A stretch of 64,000 nucleotides of DNA from contig JAFSOR010000008.1 of the NCBI GenBank assembly GCA_017446885.1, positions 62,001-126,000 of the forward strand, written 5' to 3'. Below the pieces are notes generated by a model. The model worked only from the letters and a program-made list of their open reading frames with translations, searched no databases and had not been told where the DNA came from. Within the stretch, counting starts at the first letter, position 1; each line of letters opens with the position of its first letter. This DNA comes from Spirochaetia bacterium. Lineage in GTDB: Bacteria; Spirochaetota; Spirochaetia; CADAEX01. The translations under genes were made by a program, and so were the position numbers. This document shows positions 44,835 to 59,372 of the stretch, piece by piece.

Positions 44835-44940
44835 TTCTTGATTATGCATTCAGGTTGTTCCGTTCAGATTTGGTCAATGAGGAGAAAGACAGGGCGGTTT
44901 CTTAAGCTTTCGTTCGTTTGAGGCGGAGGGGTGGGAACAA

Positions 44941-45216
44941 TTATTTCTTCAATTCGCTGACAAGTTCGGTGATAAGAGCCACTTGCTGCGAGGAAAGGCC
45001 CGATATATCTATGGCCTGGTTAGACTTGACAGAGAGCAGATAGTCGGTGGATACCTTAAATATTGATGCAAGCTCGATAAGATATTGAGTGCTTGGTACA
45101 GAAATTCCCTGTTCCCAGGCATTAACACTGGCTCTGGTTATGTTCAGCTTTTTTGCCAGCGCATTTTGAGTCATATGATGTGTTTTTCTTAAATCTTTAA
45201 TCTTATCCGCAATCAT
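44941..45216 (-). CDS. XRE-family transcriptional regulator
   Basis: A 91-residue Cro/CI-type repressor: helix-turn-helix in IKDLRKTHHMTQNALAKKLNITRASVNAWEQGISVPSTQYLIELASIFKVSTDYLL. The start MIADKIKDLR is chosen because the earlier ATG at 45237 overlaps a TATAAT -10 box. It is divergent from the YccF operon and may control it. Confidence 0.85.
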   Translation of the reverse strand: MIADKIKDLRKTHHMTQNALAKKLNITRASVNAWEQGISVPSTQYLIELASIFKVSTDYLLSVKSNQAIDISGLSSQQVALITELVSELKK

Positions 45217-45235
45217 TTTTACATTTACAGAGTAC

Positions 45236-45307
45236 ATTATACAAAATGATATTACATTATCAAAAAGATAATAAAAGTTGACAAACGATATATAAATACT
45301 CTATACT
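45236..45307. promoter_or_regulatory. Divergent promoters between the XRE gene and the YccF operon
   Basis: Minus: TTGATA (45263-45258), 16 nt, TATAAT (45241-45236). Plus: TTGACA (45278-45283), 18 nt, TATACT (45302-45307). An imperfect dyad, TGATATTACATTATCA (45247-45262), lies in the minus promoter: a likely XRE operator. Confidence 0.6.
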
Positions 45308-45327
45308 TGGCAAGGGGTTGAGTGATA

Positions 45328-46395
45328 ATGGGTTTTTTTAATCTAATTTGGTTTGTTTTTTTTGGTTGGTGGCAAGCTTTCGTTTTTGTATTGTTATCTA
45401 TTGTATTTTCAATAACAATTTTTGGTATTCCAATAGGAAAATCGTTGCTTGAATTTGCCAAACTAAGTGCTTTCCCATATGGTAAAGAAGTTATCATGGA
45501 AACCGAATTAAAGGGTAGTGAAAATGTTTCAGCAATAAGAAAACTATTTGGGGTCGTTGCTAACATTATATGGTTGCCAATCGGCCTTATCATGGCGATT
45601 GTTTATATCATTTCTGGTCTTCTCTTTTTTATAACTATTTTAGGGATTCCGATTGGTGTTGTATATTGTCGTTCTGCAAAATTTGTTATTTGGCCTATTG
45701 GCGCAAAAGTAGTTTCTAAAAAGCGGGCCTATGCTTCTGCTGTCGCAAATGAATTAGCAAGAAGAAATAATACCTCTACAGTTGGTAGCTCAGAAATAAT
45801 ACAAAATTCAGAAAGTCATTCCAATATTGCAGAATCTATATTAGGTCAAACAAATATTTCGAATACCGTTAGGGTTCCTAAAAACACTGTTGTTGCAAAT
45901 CCAAGCGCAGAATATAAAGTGATGCGTCGTACTGCAATAATAGTTGGTAATTTGTTATTGCTGGGGTTTGTAATTTGGTTTGCTTTTGGATATATAAATC
46001 AATACACAAAGAAGAAATCAAATAATAACCAAATAGAGTTATTATATTCTGAAGCAGGTAAAAAAATAGCATCAGACATGGAAACTCAAAAGCGCATAAA
46101 ATTGTTGGACTATAAAAGTAAATATATACTAACAAGAGATGCTGGATGGACATTCTTTTTTTATGTGACTGACCCAAAATCAAATACTATTACCATCTAT
46201 ACAGAATCTGGAAAAAATAGTTCAGAAGAAGAAAAAAAGATTAAAGCTCAAGTAACCGTTACAGAAATTGCTAGTTCTGATAATTACTATATCTACAGAA
46301 AAACCGAGAACAACAACTACGAGTATTATGTAAAAACACCAAAAGGTGGTTTCTATTCTGTTTCGAAAGAAGTGGGAAAAATATTAATTAACTAA
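45328..46395 (+). CDS. YccF-domain membrane protein with extra C-terminal domain
   Basis: A 355-residue protein. The N-terminal 135 residues carry two YccF (DUF307) repeats: TIFGIPIGKSLLEFAKLSAFPYGKEV and TILGIPIGVVYCRSAKFVIWPIGAKVV, between hydrophobic helices. YccF alone is normally about 120-150 residues. A polar linker (about 150-195, Asn/Ser/Thr-rich) leads to another helix (TAIIVGNLLLLGFVIWFAFGYI, about 204-225) and an extracytoplasmic domain with YILTRDAGW and YYVKTPKGGFYSVSKEV. That last domain recurs in a secreted protein two genes downstream. Ribosome site AAGGGG; a GTG two codons earlier is possible. Confidence 0.8.
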   Translation: MGFFNLIWFVFFGWWQAFVFVLLSIVFSITIFGIPIGKSLLEFAKLSAFPYGKEVIMETELKGSENVSAIRKLFGVVANIIWLPIGLIMAIVYIISGLLFFITILGIPIGVVYCRSAKFVIWPIGAKVVSKKRAYASAVANELARRNNTSTVGSSEIIQNSESHSNIAESILGQTNISNTVRVPKNTVVANPSAEYKVMRRTAIIVGNLLLLGFVIWFAFGYINQYTKKKSNNNQIELLYSEAGKKIASDMETQKRIKLLDYKSKYILTRDAGWTFFFYVTDPKSNTITIYTESGKNSSEEEKKIKAQVTVTEIASSDNYYIYRKTENNNYEYYVKTPKGGFYSVSKEVGKILIN

Positions 46396-46409
46396 CAAGG
46401 AGAAAGAAC

Positions 46410-46679
46410 ATGAATAATGTGGCTTTAAAAGAAGCAATTCAAGAGATTCTTAAAGATGTTAAACCTGGCACAATTTTTGATGCTCATTATGTGATTGAGC
46501 GGTTATTTAACGATAAAAATCAGACATATTTAGGGAATATTTCTAAGCAAGATATCAATCAATATGATGGAACTATAGCAAACATAATTAAAGGAATGGG
46601 ATATGACAGAGTGGGGGATTCCATCTCAAAAAACATTCTTGATAATTATAACTGCTGCTCTTGCTGGAGAAAAAAATGA
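46410..46679 (+). CDS. Small hypothetical protein of the YccF operon
   Basis: An 89-residue soluble protein with ribosome site AAGGAG. The sequence is helical (LKEAIQEILKDVKPGTIFDAHYVIERLF; NISKQDINQYDGTIANIIKGMGYDRVGD) and could be a winged-helix-like fold. The tail is Cys-rich and basic (NCCSCWRKK). No family recognised. It overlaps the next gene by 4 nt. Confidence 0.65.
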   Translation: MNNVALKEAIQEILKDVKPGTIFDAHYVIERLFNDKNQTYLGNISKQDINQYDGTIANIIKGMGYDRVGDSISKNILDNYNCCSCWRKK

Positions 46680-47179
46680 AAAGAAATGTTCTGCTTGTTT
46701 TAATTCTGTTCCTGATAATAATTGGGGTTGCCTTCGCTGAAGGGACAGCCGAAGAAAGAACTGAAAATATTAAAAACTCATTAGCCTTAAAAGCAATGCA
46801 ACAGGATATGAATAATAGGAAGTTCGATGTTCTGGCGAGAGGTTATAGTGATAGTTATTTCTATATTCTTGCTAAAGATGCTAATTGGCGAATGTTCCTT
46901 TATAGGGCTTATGTAGGCTCATCTGGATCATACGATGGCAATATTTACTTGTATCAAGAAGATGGAAAAGCTACTAAAGAAAGTATAAAGAATGAAGTGG
47001 ATAAAGGTAGGACGGTATCTAAAATTATAGATGATTCATATGTAGCTTTTAAAATAGACGGCTGGCCTGATAAATACTATATCAAAACACAAAAAGGGGA
47101 TTTTTATTCTGTCAGCAAATTAATACGAGAATCAAATAATGCAGCTTCTTTCACTGGAATAGATGATTTCTTGAATTAG
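46676..47179 (+). CDS. Secreted protein sharing the YccF-fusion C-terminal domain
   Basis: A 167-residue protein: signal peptide (MKRNVLLVLILFLIIIGVAFA, about 21), mature start EGTAEERTEN. The domain from about residue 58 reads FYILAKDANWRMFLYR...DGNIYLYQEDGK...YYIKTQKGDFYSVSKLI. It aligns with residues 270-350 of the YccF fusion (YILTRDAGW...NTITIYTESGK...YYVKTPKGGFYSVSKEV) with the same spacing. So one domain is used once tethered and once free in the same operon. ATG is chosen over a longer frame because GGAG is 6 nt upstream and the signal peptide starts there. Confidence 0.78.
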   Translation: MKRNVLLVLILFLIIIGVAFAEGTAEERTENIKNSLALKAMQQDMNNRKFDVLARGYSDSYFYILAKDANWRMFLYRAYVGSSGSYDGNIYLYQEDGKATKESIKNEVDKGRTVSKIIDDSYVAFKIDGWPDKYYIKTQKGDFYSVSKLIRESNNAASFTGIDDFLN

Positions 47180-47186
47180 AATTGAT

Positions 47187-47618
47187 ATGAAAAAGTTTTT
47201 TTCTCTCATTTTGTTTTTGCTTGTTGTAGGTGGTATTTTTGCAGAAGGTACTGCAGAGGGATATGGAACAAATCCATATGGGCCCTATAATCCTAATGCT
47301 GTTTATCCTCCATATGATATAAGCAAATGCAGGAATATGCTGGGCCGGGCTCTTGCCGCAAAGTTTGATCTGGCACAAAGCGGACAAGACTATTCTGATT
47401 TATCAGTTCAAAAGGCAGTACTTCTGACTGGATTAACAAAAAAACAGGCAGAGGTAACTGTAAAATATTGTCCGAAACTTATGGATTTTTGGTATAACGA
47501 AAAGCTTTGGTCAAACAAAGATAATCTTACTTCAGATATGCTGTATAGGCTTTTATTAAATGTTGATACTGGTTCCACAATGGTTTATGCAGATATGATT
47601 TATGATTTGAGCGATTAA
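47187..47618 (+). CDS. Secreted hypothetical protein
   Basis: A 143-residue protein with signal peptide (MKKFFSLILFLLVVGGIFA). The mature N terminus EGTAEGYGTNPYGPYNPN resembles the upstream neighbour's EGTAEE. The rest is helical and soluble (MLGRALAAKFDLAQSGQDYSD; LTKKQAEVTVKYCPKLMDFWYN). No family recognised. It follows the preceding gene by 7 nt. Confidence 0.65.
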   Translation: MKKFFSLILFLLVVGGIFAEGTAEGYGTNPYGPYNPNAVYPPYDISKCRNMLGRALAAKFDLAQSGQDYSDLSVQKAVLLTGLTKKQAEVTVKYCPKLMDFWYNEKLWSNKDNLTSDMLYRLLLNVDTGSTMVYADMIYDLSD

Positions 47619-47633
47619 AAGAGGAAGATAGTT

Positions 47634-48176
47634 ATGAAAAAAATAATTGTAGTTTTAATACTTGGTCTATTTGCATGTATTTGTTCTGCGGAAGAAATTA
47701 CTCTTTTTGAGGGTTTTGATGCAATACCATGGGGAACATGTTTTGAAGAAATAAATAAGATTTATCCCAATGCAAGAAACATAACTTTACCGAATCAGAA
47801 AGCAGTTGGAGAAAAAGTTTTATCAGTAACAGAAAATGGACCAACTATGAGTTATTACTTTTTTAATGATAAATTGTATAAGGGTAGAATTTATATTTCT
47901 GATATAAACCATAATGCAGTAATAGCCGTTTATTCAATTTTATGTAATACATATGGAGAACCATATGGAGGGCATCCTATTGAGGGCGGAGATGTGTGGT
48001 TAAAGAAAAAAGGGTATTCATCATTTTGGGCTCCTTTTGCTAAGTTAGGAATATCTTTTGAATATGTTTCTACATTAGATGCATCTAATAGACTAATGGG
48101 CAATAATCTTTCTATTGAATATTGTGATTTAAAGACATCACATGAAGTTAATGAAGCAAAGAAAAAGAAAGAATAA
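47634..48176 (+). CDS. Secreted hypothetical protein
   Basis: A 180-residue protein with signal peptide (MKKIIVVLILGLFACICSAEE) and ribosome site GAGGAAG. The mature part has FDAIPWGTCFEEINKIYPNAR near 27-47, typical of small periplasmic proteins in which an IPWG segment precedes a comparison of two profiles, then GRIYISDINHNAVIAVYSILCNTYGEPYGG. It ends with a Lys-rich tail. No named family assigned with confidence. Confidence 0.65.
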   Translation: MKKIIVVLILGLFACICSAEEITLFEGFDAIPWGTCFEEINKIYPNARNITLPNQKAVGEKVLSVTENGPTMSYYFFNDKLYKGRIYISDINHNAVIAVYSILCNTYGEPYGGHPIEGGDVWLKKKGYSSFWAPFAKLGISFEYVSTLDASNRLMGNNLSIEYCDLKTSHEVNEAKKKKE

Positions 48177-48215
48177 AGAAAAGCGGGTAATTATTTCTAT
48201 GTAGGAGGTAATATT

Positions 48216-48701
48216 ATGGAATCGACAATTTTATATTGTAAGAAATGTGACAGTTGTTTTTCAGGACCAGAGGGACAGGCAATATTATGCCCGACATGTA
48301 AAGCAGAATTAATTGAAACCCATTGTTCAGTGTCTAAATGGGATTCTCTGAGTAAGGATGAAAAGAATTCTCTTCGGAAACAATGGAAAGGGATGATTGA
48401 GGAGCAGAAAACAGACTTAAAAGATGAGCAGCCTGGTGAATCTGGATTATCAGATGATGCGGTTGTTTCTATAAAAGCATTTGTCATAATAGCTTGTGCG
48501 GCCCTTCTTATTATTGGATCTCTTTGGGGCTATGGTTTCTGCAAGGCACATTCTGATATTAAAAATGAAGAAGGTTTAATTGTAATGGCCTATAGGATTA
48601 GTAATAAGGGACTGAATCCTATTTCCAAGAGCGGCTACAAAACTTATTTGCATAACTATCCTAAGTTGGAGAGGCAGGTAAAGTCTTTCATCCGGTATTG
48701 A
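48216..48701 (+). CDS. Zinc-ribbon membrane protein
   Basis: A 161-residue protein. The N terminus has a zinc ribbon YCKKCDSCFSGPEGQAILCPTCKAEL (CxxC...CxxC). A charged linker (SKDEKNSLRKQWKGMIEEQKTDLKDE) and one helix (AFVIIACAALLIIGSLWGYGF, about 88-108) follow, then a short outer domain ending RQVKSFIRY. This could be a sensor or anchor. It ends the AT-rich operon. Confidence 0.7.
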   Translation: MESTILYCKKCDSCFSGPEGQAILCPTCKAELIETHCSVSKWDSLSKDEKNSLRKQWKGMIEEQKTDLKDEQPGESGLSDDAVVSIKAFVIIACAALLIIGSLWGYGFCKAHSDIKNEEGLIVMAYRISNKGLNPISKSGYKTYLHNYPKLERQVKSFIRY

Positions 48702-48778
48702 TCATCTGACCTGGCAGACATTTTCAATGGAAAACGCATCAAAAGTGTGATATACTCCTGTATACATAGGAGTTATTT

Positions 48779-49234
48779 ATGAAGTGTGCAGTAGTCTACT
48801 ATTCAAAAACTGGAGTGACCAAGAGGATAGCCGACCAGATTCAGGCAAAGTTCAATGCTGATGTCTATCTGGTGGAGCCTGAGAAAGCATATGGAGGCTT
48901 CCTGTCGTCGGTGGCCAGGGTGGTGGGAGAAAAGATATCCAAGAAGGGTGCAGCGCTCAAGACAGCTGTTTCTGATTTTTCTTCCTACGATACTGTGTTC
49001 ATCGGGTTCCCGGTATGGTGCGGCACAGTTCCTGATTTTATGCAGGAGTACATACGCAAAGCCAACTTGGCCGGCAAGCGGATTATCCCTTTTGCAACAG
49101 CAAGTGCTACAGGAAAAGAGAGTTCTTTGAATACACTCAAGAGTCTTCTTCCAAATTCTAAGATTACAGACTATTTCTACACATCAAGCCGCCAGAAGGG
49201 CGATGTAAAGGGCTGGATAGAGGGGATAGAATAA
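48779..49234 (+). CDS. Flavodoxin-like protein
   Basis: A 151-residue FMN-binding protein with YYSKTGVTKRIADQI near 8-22 (phosphate loop S-K-T-G), FIGFPVWCGTVPDFMQEYI near 72-90 (W-C flavin-stacking region) and FATASATGKESSLNTLKSLL near 104-123. It belongs to the short flavodoxin family related to NAD(P)H-dependent FMN reductases. Ribosome site AGGAG. It could carry electrons, for example for the ferredoxin oxidoreductase (inference). Confidence 0.88.
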   Translation: MKCAVVYYSKTGVTKRIADQIQAKFNADVYLVEPEKAYGGFLSSVARVVGEKISKKGAALKTAVSDFSSYDTVFIGFPVWCGTVPDFMQEYIRKANLAGKRIIPFATASATGKESSLNTLKSLLPNSKITDYFYTSSRQKGDVKGWIEGIE

Positions 49235-49317
49235 TCGACTTTAAAAACAGTATTCTCGTGCAAAAACAGCTTAAAACAAATCGCATTTTCGGTTGAAAAC
49301 TTTTAACTGAATAACAC

Positions 49318-49355
49318 TTGAATTATATACAAATTATGATATAATTATGATATAA
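49318..49355 (+). promoter_or_regulatory. Toxin-antitoxin promoter with tandem repeat
   Basis: TTGAAT (49318-49323), 16 nt, TATAAT (49340-49345). ATTATGATATAA occurs at 49333-49344 and 49344-49355, 11-bp period, over the -10: a candidate antitoxin operator. Confidence 0.6.
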
Positions 49356-49375
49356 CTTTTAAAGGTAGGTGTATT

Positions 49376-49639
49376 ATGCCAGCTATTAGGGCAAGTGCCG
49401 ATCTGCGAAATAAATATGCAGAAATCTCAGATTATTGCCATTCTACAAATGAGCCAGTATTTATAACAAAAAATGGGCAAGGCGATTTGGCTGTTATGAG
49501 TATTGCACAGTACGATTTTCTTTTGGAAAAACTTGATTTATATTCAAAACTTGCAGATGGTCTCAAGGACTTCCAAAATGGTAAGCATGAATCCTTTGAC
49601 AAGGCAATGCAAGATATCAGAAAAGGACTGGAGATTTGA
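49376..49639 (+). CDS. Phd/YefM-type antitoxin
   Basis: An 87-residue protein with the Phd/YefM fold: IRASADLRNKYAEISDYCHSTNEPVFITKNGQGDLAVMSIAQYDFLLEKLDLYSKL (4-60). The C-terminal tail KHESFDKAMQDIRKGLEI would bind the toxin. It overlaps the toxin by 1 nt (TGATG). Confidence 0.88.
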   Translation: MPAIRASADLRNKYAEISDYCHSTNEPVFITKNGQGDLAVMSIAQYDFLLEKLDLYSKLADGLKDFQNGKHESFDKAMQDIRKGLEI

Positions 49640-49983
49640 TGTACAGTATCGAGATATCAGAGTCTGCAAAAGCAGATATCAAAGAAATATTGTCGTATAT
49701 TAAAGATTCTCTTCATAATCCAAAGGCTGCATCAAACTTAGCTGATTTACTTACGCAAGAAATATCATCTTTGGCACAGTTCCCATTCAGCGGTACTCCT
49801 GTTCAAGATAGGTTCCTTGTAAATTATGGTTTTAGGTTTTTACTTGTCAATAATTTCAAAGTCTTTTATATAGCTCTAGATCGGCTGGATAGTAAACAAG
49901 TTCGAATTATTCGCGTTTTATATGCCCGACGAGATTATGAAAAGATATTGAATGACACGTCTATTGACAAATCACAATTATAA
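49639..49983 (+). CDS. ParE/RelE-superfamily toxin
   Basis: A 114-residue protein with the RelE/ParE fold: YSIEISESAKADIKEILSYIKDSLHNPKAASNLADLLTQEISSLAQFPFSGTPV, YGFRFLLVNNFKVFYIALD and IIRVLYARRDYEKIL. The RxDY end matches the ParE-type branch, which targets gyrase or ribosomes; exact target unknown. Paired with the preceding antitoxin. Confidence 0.88.
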   Translation: MYSIEISESAKADIKEILSYIKDSLHNPKAASNLADLLTQEISSLAQFPFSGTPVQDRFLVNYGFRFLLVNNFKVFYIALDRLDSKQVRIIRVLYARRDYEKILNDTSIDKSQL

Positions 49984-49993
49984 AATCTTTTTA

Positions 49994-50278
49994 TTAAACT
50001 TCTATCGACCCTAAAAACAGCTCGTACAGGTCATCGGCGTTCTGGATGCGGGGATGGTTCTCGCCGCCTCCGTTGGTGCTGCGGGCCATCTCGGCATAGG
50101 CTTCTTCGCCGGCCATGACCAGGTCGATGGCAGATATAGGATAACCGATTTCGGTGCTTATCTTGCAGAACTCTGCGGCCGGGTTTGCGCTCTGTCGGGT
50201 GGCCAGCAGTTTTCGCCGCAGCACCGCATCTTCTTTGCACAGCTGGTATAAAATGTCGAGAGTTTCCTGAACATTCAT
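49994..50278 (-). CDS. Small hypothetical protein coupled to ogt
   Basis: A 94-residue protein, mostly helical: ETLDILYQLCKEDAVLRRKLLATRQSANPAAEFCKISTEIGYPISAIDLVMAGEEAYAEMA. This vaguely resembles a Nif11-like leader domain, then STNGGGENHPRIQNADDLYELFLGSIEV. It overlaps ogt by 4 nt and is last in the YgiQ-ogt operon. The leader idea is weak and no processing genes are present. Confidence 0.6.
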   Translation of the reverse strand: MNVQETLDILYQLCKEDAVLRRKLLATRQSANPAAEFCKISTEIGYPISAIDLVMAGEEAYAEMARSTNGGGENHPRIQNADDLYELFLGSIEV

Positions 50279-58850: not shown

Positions 58851-58886
58851 TGATATTTTTAAAAGTTCAAGCAAGTGGAGAACAGA

Positions 58887-59372
58887 ATGTTTCATAAAGC
58901 AATTGATATAAAATTTTTACGAGGGACTACTCTTAAAGTTGTGTTTCTTGACGGGACCGTCAAAAAATATGATATGAGTCTCCTTTTTCATAAATACCCT
59001 CAGCTTGCTGCATTGAATAATCGTAAGCTTTTTCTTTCGGGTCGGCTTTCAGGGCCATATGGTATTATATGGAATGATGATCTTGATATAGAAACAGAGA
59101 CAATTTATGCAGAGGGCAAAACAGTTCAGAAAAAAGATATTCAGATACATATGATATCTGCAAAAGCAGTATTATCGGCCAGAGCCCTGGCAGGAATATC
59201 ACAGGCTGAACTCTCATCTGCGTCAGGAATTAACCAATCAGATATCTCAAAAATTGAAAGAGGCGTTGCTAACCCTTCAGTTAGAACATTGGAACGTATT
59301 GCAGCTGCGCTGGGCGGTCAGCTTTCTATTGCTATCCAGATGCCTCCTCCAGCTCCTTCACATGTTCAATAA
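58887..59372 (+). CDS. DUF2442-XRE fusion protein
   Basis: A 161-residue protein. Residues 1-80 form a DUF2442 domain (FLRGTTLKVVFLDGTVKKYDMSLLFHKYPQ...LFLSGRLSGPYGIIWNDDLDIETETIY). Residues 90-155 form an XRE helix-turn-helix (LSARALAGISQAELSSASGINQSDISKIERGVANPSVRTLERIAAAL). DUF4160/DUF2442 pairs behave like toxin-antitoxin operons; here the second partner would be the regulator. The ATG has GGAG 8 nt upstream. It overlaps the convergent nnrD by 41 nt. Confidence 0.85.
   Translation: MFHKAIDIKFLRGTTLKVVFLDGTVKKYDMSLLFHKYPQLAALNNRKLFLSGRLSGPYGIIWNDDLDIETETIYAEGKTVQKKDIQIHMISAKAVLSARALAGISQAELSSASGINQSDISKIERGVANPSVRTLERIAAALGGQLSIAIQMPPPAPSHVQ

Follow-up and report, generated by a model that had tools for sequence, protein, structure and literature searches.

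YccF proteins (DUF307; Pfam PF03733) are widespread, and yccF is among the genes whose mutants are boric-acid-sensitive in E. coli (PMC11502571). In the literature that we searched, YccF or DUF307 was mentioned in passing only, and no functional study of these proteins was found. Among the arrangements closest to the locus described here are those of four rumen Treponema MAGs (L009-L012), in which YccF is encoded opposite an XRE gene and accompanied by differing secreted or membrane cargo, namely a DUF805 protein, secreted proteins of 380 or 467 aa and a P-loop-like protein. The YccF genes and cargo of L009 and L012 match at 99%, with different XRE genes and flanks, and L010 and L012 match at 87% over XRE and YccF, with different cargo. 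The island that we analyzed resembles these mosaic cassettes in that a divergent XRE gene lies beside YccF and genes for membrane or secreted proteins come next, but they carry a plain YccF, other XRE subfamilies and other cargo. It is located in a window of 64,000 nucleotides, the whole stretch of DNA analyzed, from a genome that is 94.5% complete in 28 contigs. The genomes compared with it are designated by G numbers, and its features are the following:

44892..44938, no strand: left slot edge, 47 bases 96% identical to G001 (L031 10551-10597), after which the similarity ends
44941..45237, minus: XRE (Cro/C1-type HTH) repressor, 98 aa (HTH_3 E 1.6e-15)
45233..45266, no strand: candidate operator between the divergent genes, two direct copies of TACATTATaCAAAA whose starts are 20 bases apart (repeat search)
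45278..45307, plus: candidate sigma-70 promoter TTGACA-18-TATACT (11/12 consensus positions in scan)
45328..46395, plus: gene 1, YccF fusion with two PF03733 (YccF) repeats (PF03733 E 4.1e-21)
46000..46395, plus: stretch of gene 1 coding for the tethered copy of the shared domain (BLASTP to gene 3 E 1e-10; G001+G003 profile E 9.9e-21)
46410..46679, plus: gene 2, 89-aa soluble protein from a small family marked by the motifs FDxHxVI and SxNI
46676..47179, plus: gene 3, signal peptide and free copy of the shared domain (BLASTP; G001+G003 profile E 8.8e-13)
47187..47618, plus: gene 4, 143-aa secreted protein (G006 homolog, 78% aa identity over 131 residues, dN/dS 0.12)
47634..48176, plus: gene 5, 180-aa secreted protein (another genus has relatives in five of its genomes, E 1e-8 to 1e-5)
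48216..48701, plus: gene 6, zinc ribbon at the N-terminus, single TM helix and short C-terminal NPIS..GY domain (G006 homolog, 73% aa identity, dN/dS 0.18)
48702..48778, no strand: right slot edge, just before the flavodoxin gene (DNA comparison with G001)

The first-pass annotation had described an XRE repressor divergent from a set of six AT-rich genes (45328-48701 on the plus strand), and all seven genes were found where it had placed them, at 33.6% GC for the island vs 48.3% for the window outside 44939-49999. The island is approximately the lowest-GC 3.84-kb slice anywhere in the window. The interval originally given, 45216-48701, encloses the six genes but leaves most of the XRE gene outside, position 45216 being an alternative start of that gene. 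The gaps between the six genes measure 14, -4, 7, 15 and 39 bases, so they fit a single transcription unit and may well be transcribed as an operon. Hydropathy analysis gave signal-like N-terminal sequences for the products of genes 3, 4 and 5 and one TM segment for that of gene 6, in line with the three secreted proteins and the zinc-ribbon membrane protein of the original description; by appearance, five of the six products are membrane-bound or secreted. The ribbon itself can be read from the sequence (CKKC...CPTC) and is retained by the homolog from G006, but its Pfam E is only 0.18. The XRE protein scores 57.3 bits against HTH_3 (cut-off 23), which together with its small size and the divergent gene order assigns it to the XRE/Cro-C1 repressors; its NCBIfam matches, of the RstR/DicA type, are subthreshold. 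Between the divergent genes, the candidate operator is a short repeat family of two copies and the candidate promoter a consensus match only, both of them weak evidence. We consider it probable that the operon is under the control of the XRE protein, which would keep it low until a cue lifts repression.

Gene 1 has its best start at the ATG at 45328, and its product consists of two YccF repeats, a cytosolic linker, a TM helix at residues 198-224 and the shared domain at residues ~225-355, as expected from the earlier description of a YccF protein extended by a helix and an extra domain. Two stretches of it match PF03733 with 75.8 bits (gathering score 27), and its best score against the NCBIfam YccF equivalog is 81.5 bits (cut-off 140); judged from its sequence, the product is a YccF-domain protein and not an equivalog. 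The AlphaFold2 model has a mean pLDDT of 59.6, with values of mostly 70-83 in the YccF part. Compared with plain YccF, the protein is longer by ~200 residues, made up of the linker, the extra TM helix and the new extracytoplasmic domain, whereas the close plain relatives that we inspected stop after the repeats. The nearest of these, 149 aa long and 71% identical, is from an uncultured Treponema, where it is surrounded by toxin-antitoxin-like genes, and the next is from a Sulfurimonas MAG (66%). YccF was not found in the ten other genomes of the order that were searched, and the fusion was absent from every other genome searched. Because the free copy of the domain bears a signal peptide and positive charges precede the last TM helix of gene 1, the C-terminal domain is probably located in the periplasm. 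A natural fusion in which YccF carries a periplasmic domain that also has a soluble partner offers a handle on the role of these widespread proteins.

That one domain occurs both in the YccF fusion and in the gene 3 protein had been proposed from the letters alone, and our results support it. The two copies align by BLASTP with 36% identity over 88 residues, and a profile built from the copies of G001 and G003 only recovers both of them at the E values listed above, far beyond chance, with the next best of the 555 window ORFs at 0.47; the relation between genes 1 and 3 is therefore not dependent on a single pairwise score. Pairwise identities among the four known copies are 26-39%, which means that genes 1 and 3 did not come from a recent duplication. 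The domain also turned out to be undescribed, as had been suspected: it is covered by no family in Pfam, NCBIfam or PHROGs, its profile gave no significant match to PDB sequences (best E 0.42), and a Foldseek search of PDB and of viral models with the modelled domain returned no match at E <= 0.001 (best 0.03). Likewise, viral contigs held no relative of the domain (profile) or of gene 2, and phage and plasmid records no match for gene 3. Phage records with similarity to XRE or YccF proved to be faecal scaffolds lacking annotation or looked bacterial, and they were of no help. The structure prediction called for in the first-pass annotation succeeded in part, since AlphaFold2 returned a fair model of the mature part of gene 3 (pLDDT 80.8, pTM 0.80, from an alignment of two sequences; the other four models at ~56-63) in which two N-terminal helices are followed by four strands, one helix and four more strands, but this fold led to no significant structural match. 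With neither a known relative nor a fold match, no activity can be read from the domain.

Within the class, the domain was present in three of the ~395 genomes sampled, all in this genus (three of its seven genomes); a fifth listed match (L026; four stops, E 6e-5) was left out. The free, secreted copy was found in this genome only, and G001 (L005/L035) and G003 (L004/L034) have a tethered copy only. In both of these the domain stands behind a three-TM segment, and a 65-66-aa HTH_26 gene is located divergently at ~100 bases from the module. A comparison of the three-TM anchor with the YccF profile was not significant (probability 1.1%), so we rejected the idea that it is a diverged YccF. These modules are thus like the island in the window in having the same domain on a membrane anchor, a divergent Cro/C1-type repressor and AT-rich DNA (31-36% GC vs 48%), and unlike it in the type of anchor, in their ankyrin or FGE-sulfatase companions and in lacking a free copy. 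The G003 module precedes rpsF, and that of G001 adjoins a glmS-like gene. A survey of gene neighbourhoods had been proposed at the outset for XRE plus the YccF fusion; in 3/3 domain-holding genomes a Cro/C1 repressor gene stands divergently beside the membrane-anchored copy, at three different sites (argG, rpsF, glmS) and with two anchor types. Between G001 and G003, the stretch with HTH gene and promoter is 81% identical in DNA vs 39% protein identity for the domain; the two share ancestry at the repressor and therefore count as one, which leaves two independent cases of repressor linkage, not three. A domain family without a database match, linked to a repressor in every genome that has it and carried on two different membrane anchors, is a concrete and testable object. 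In both sister genomes the domain is accompanied by ankyrin repeats, which are fused after it in G003 (L004:1132-2232) and belong, in G001, to a signal-peptide protein that has an FGE-sulfatase domain (L005:463-1449). Directly upstream of the G003 module there is also a short peptide similar to a Nif11-type leader (L034:2-175; Pfam E 0.008, below the cut-off).

The strongest functional clue comes from outside the interval first annotated, namely from the chromosomal slot between argG and the flavodoxin gene. DNA similarity to G001, whose argG is 95% identical, ends at 44938 and resumes at 48778, and in G001 the slot holds a type IIG restriction-methylation protein, recognized by PADLOC (E 5e-163) and by the Pfam models N6_Mtase and Methylase_S, together with an XRE gene, HicB-like genes and a 212-aa protein that belongs to no known family. 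By location, then, the island is a candidate for anti-phage defence. It is like the restriction island of G001 in occupying the same slot, in its low GC and in having its own XRE gene, but the proteins of the latter are unrelated and have a known defence function. G005, which is more distant, has transporter genes in this interval. The slot could be compared in these two sisters only, because the G003 contig stops right behind argG and a DNA search of G002, G004 and G006 did not find that gene. Directly after the flavodoxin gene, the adjoining interval 49235-49999 forms a second variable slot, which encodes a Phd-like protein together with a ParE toxin in the window, but a Gp49-type toxin together with an HTH protein in G001. 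The argG/flavodoxin slot is thus a site of exchange, open to defence genes and to other cargo, and it is a place to seek further cargo in the lineage. The 47 bases at the left edge lie in poorly conserved surroundings and could be a recombination edge or an RNA end; we discarded them as a repeated attachment site, since there is one copy in the window.

Taken as a whole, our preferred reading is that of a horizontally acquired, repressor-controlled envelope cassette in the argG/flavodoxin exchange site, plausibly protective, and we give it slightly less than an even chance. Its parts differ in strength. The architecture, the acquisition and the exchange site we hold to be highly probable, and the protective function is doubtful. 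A protective role is suggested by location and regulator type, with a restriction system in the sister slot and toxin-antitoxin genes beside the island, and the operon might then protect the cell at its envelope against phage or competitors, which is the weaker step. The free copy of the domain could pair or compete with the tethered one, and the receptor-ligand, immunity or envelope-stress system suggested in the first-pass annotation is hypothetical. Against protection speak the non-defence cargo of G005 and the result that no PADLOC model was matched by the six operon proteins; for hallmark genes, that search returned only HTH matches, for the XRE protein. Prophage structural or integration genes were not found in the island, where PHROGs matches below 1e-3 were obtained for the XRE protein only.

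The remaining genes bear on whether the island is one system at all. Genes 4 and 6 lie adjacent to each other behind dnaE in G006, with gene 5 absent between them and genes 1, 2, 3 and 5 not with the pair. Relatives of gene 2 at 29-37% identity occur in G005, G008 (two, one of them within an OmpA-like protein) and G221, and those of gene 5 in accessory-looking regions, one of them opposite an XRE gene; both families are found there without the rest. Closely similar HicB-like genes are located beside the gene 4/6 pair of G006 (L057:1-381) and in the argG slot of G001 (L031:5917-6297), from which we infer that cargo moves between sites in the genus. This scattered occurrence makes the six-gene set a mosaic. 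The first-pass annotation had taken the lack of joint conservation in other genomes as an argument against its proposal, and that is the situation for most of the neighbours: among the genomes searched, the fusion and the secreted copy are found only here, and a conserved six-gene unit has to be given up. The same facts, shuffling between sites included, favor the view that the island is a loose pile of accessory genes that arrived separately and have a common promoter only, with no joint function beyond the domain-sharing pair. We regard this as rather unlikely, given the tight spacing with an overlap, the single strong promoter-like site, the domain common to genes 1 and 3, the predominance of membrane-bound or secreted products and the purifying selection acting on genes 4 and 6 (dN/dS vs G006 as listed).

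If the island were an envelope-stress or nutrient-sensing module, its tethered domain would sense a periplasmic ligand or damage, the free copy would carry or buffer it, and the other secreted proteins would respond. The location of most products at the envelope, weak and non-significant Foldseek matches to RseB, LolA and YpeB, and the boric-acid sensitivity of the E. coli mutants are compatible with it, but the E values of those matches are 0.03 at best, the regulator belongs to the one-component repressors of phage type and has no recognisable sensor, and the distribution is sporadic, unlike that of housekeeping stress systems, all of which makes the idea improbable. A little more improbable still is a bolder version of the cassette reading, in which the island would represent a new repressor-controlled envelope defence module built on a fast-evolving periplasmic domain on interchangeable anchors (YccF or three-TM), which in one species would also be released as a free partner to tune the tethered copy. 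A toxin-immunity pair or contact-dependent system, with a secreted copy that hits rivals and a tethered one that protects, would account for the two versions of one domain in neighbouring genes and for its fast divergence between species (26-39%), but it is very unlikely, as Pfam, NCBIfam, PHROGs and PADLOC show no toxin, delivery or immunity family in the island and G001 and G003 have the tethered copy only.

Some of the cargo families extend further. That of gene 2 is present in another genus (L040:673-1776, L037:1495-1815), where one member makes up the C-terminus of an OmpA-like protein that has a TM helix. Other families of the class have stand-alone proteins of ~65-90 aa (L051, L052, L053, L055, L056) that correspond to the C-terminal portion of gene 6, with its TM helix and NPIS..GY motif. 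Elsewhere in the window, a DUF2442 and HTH protein is encoded at 58875-59372, a further toxin-antitoxin-like gene.
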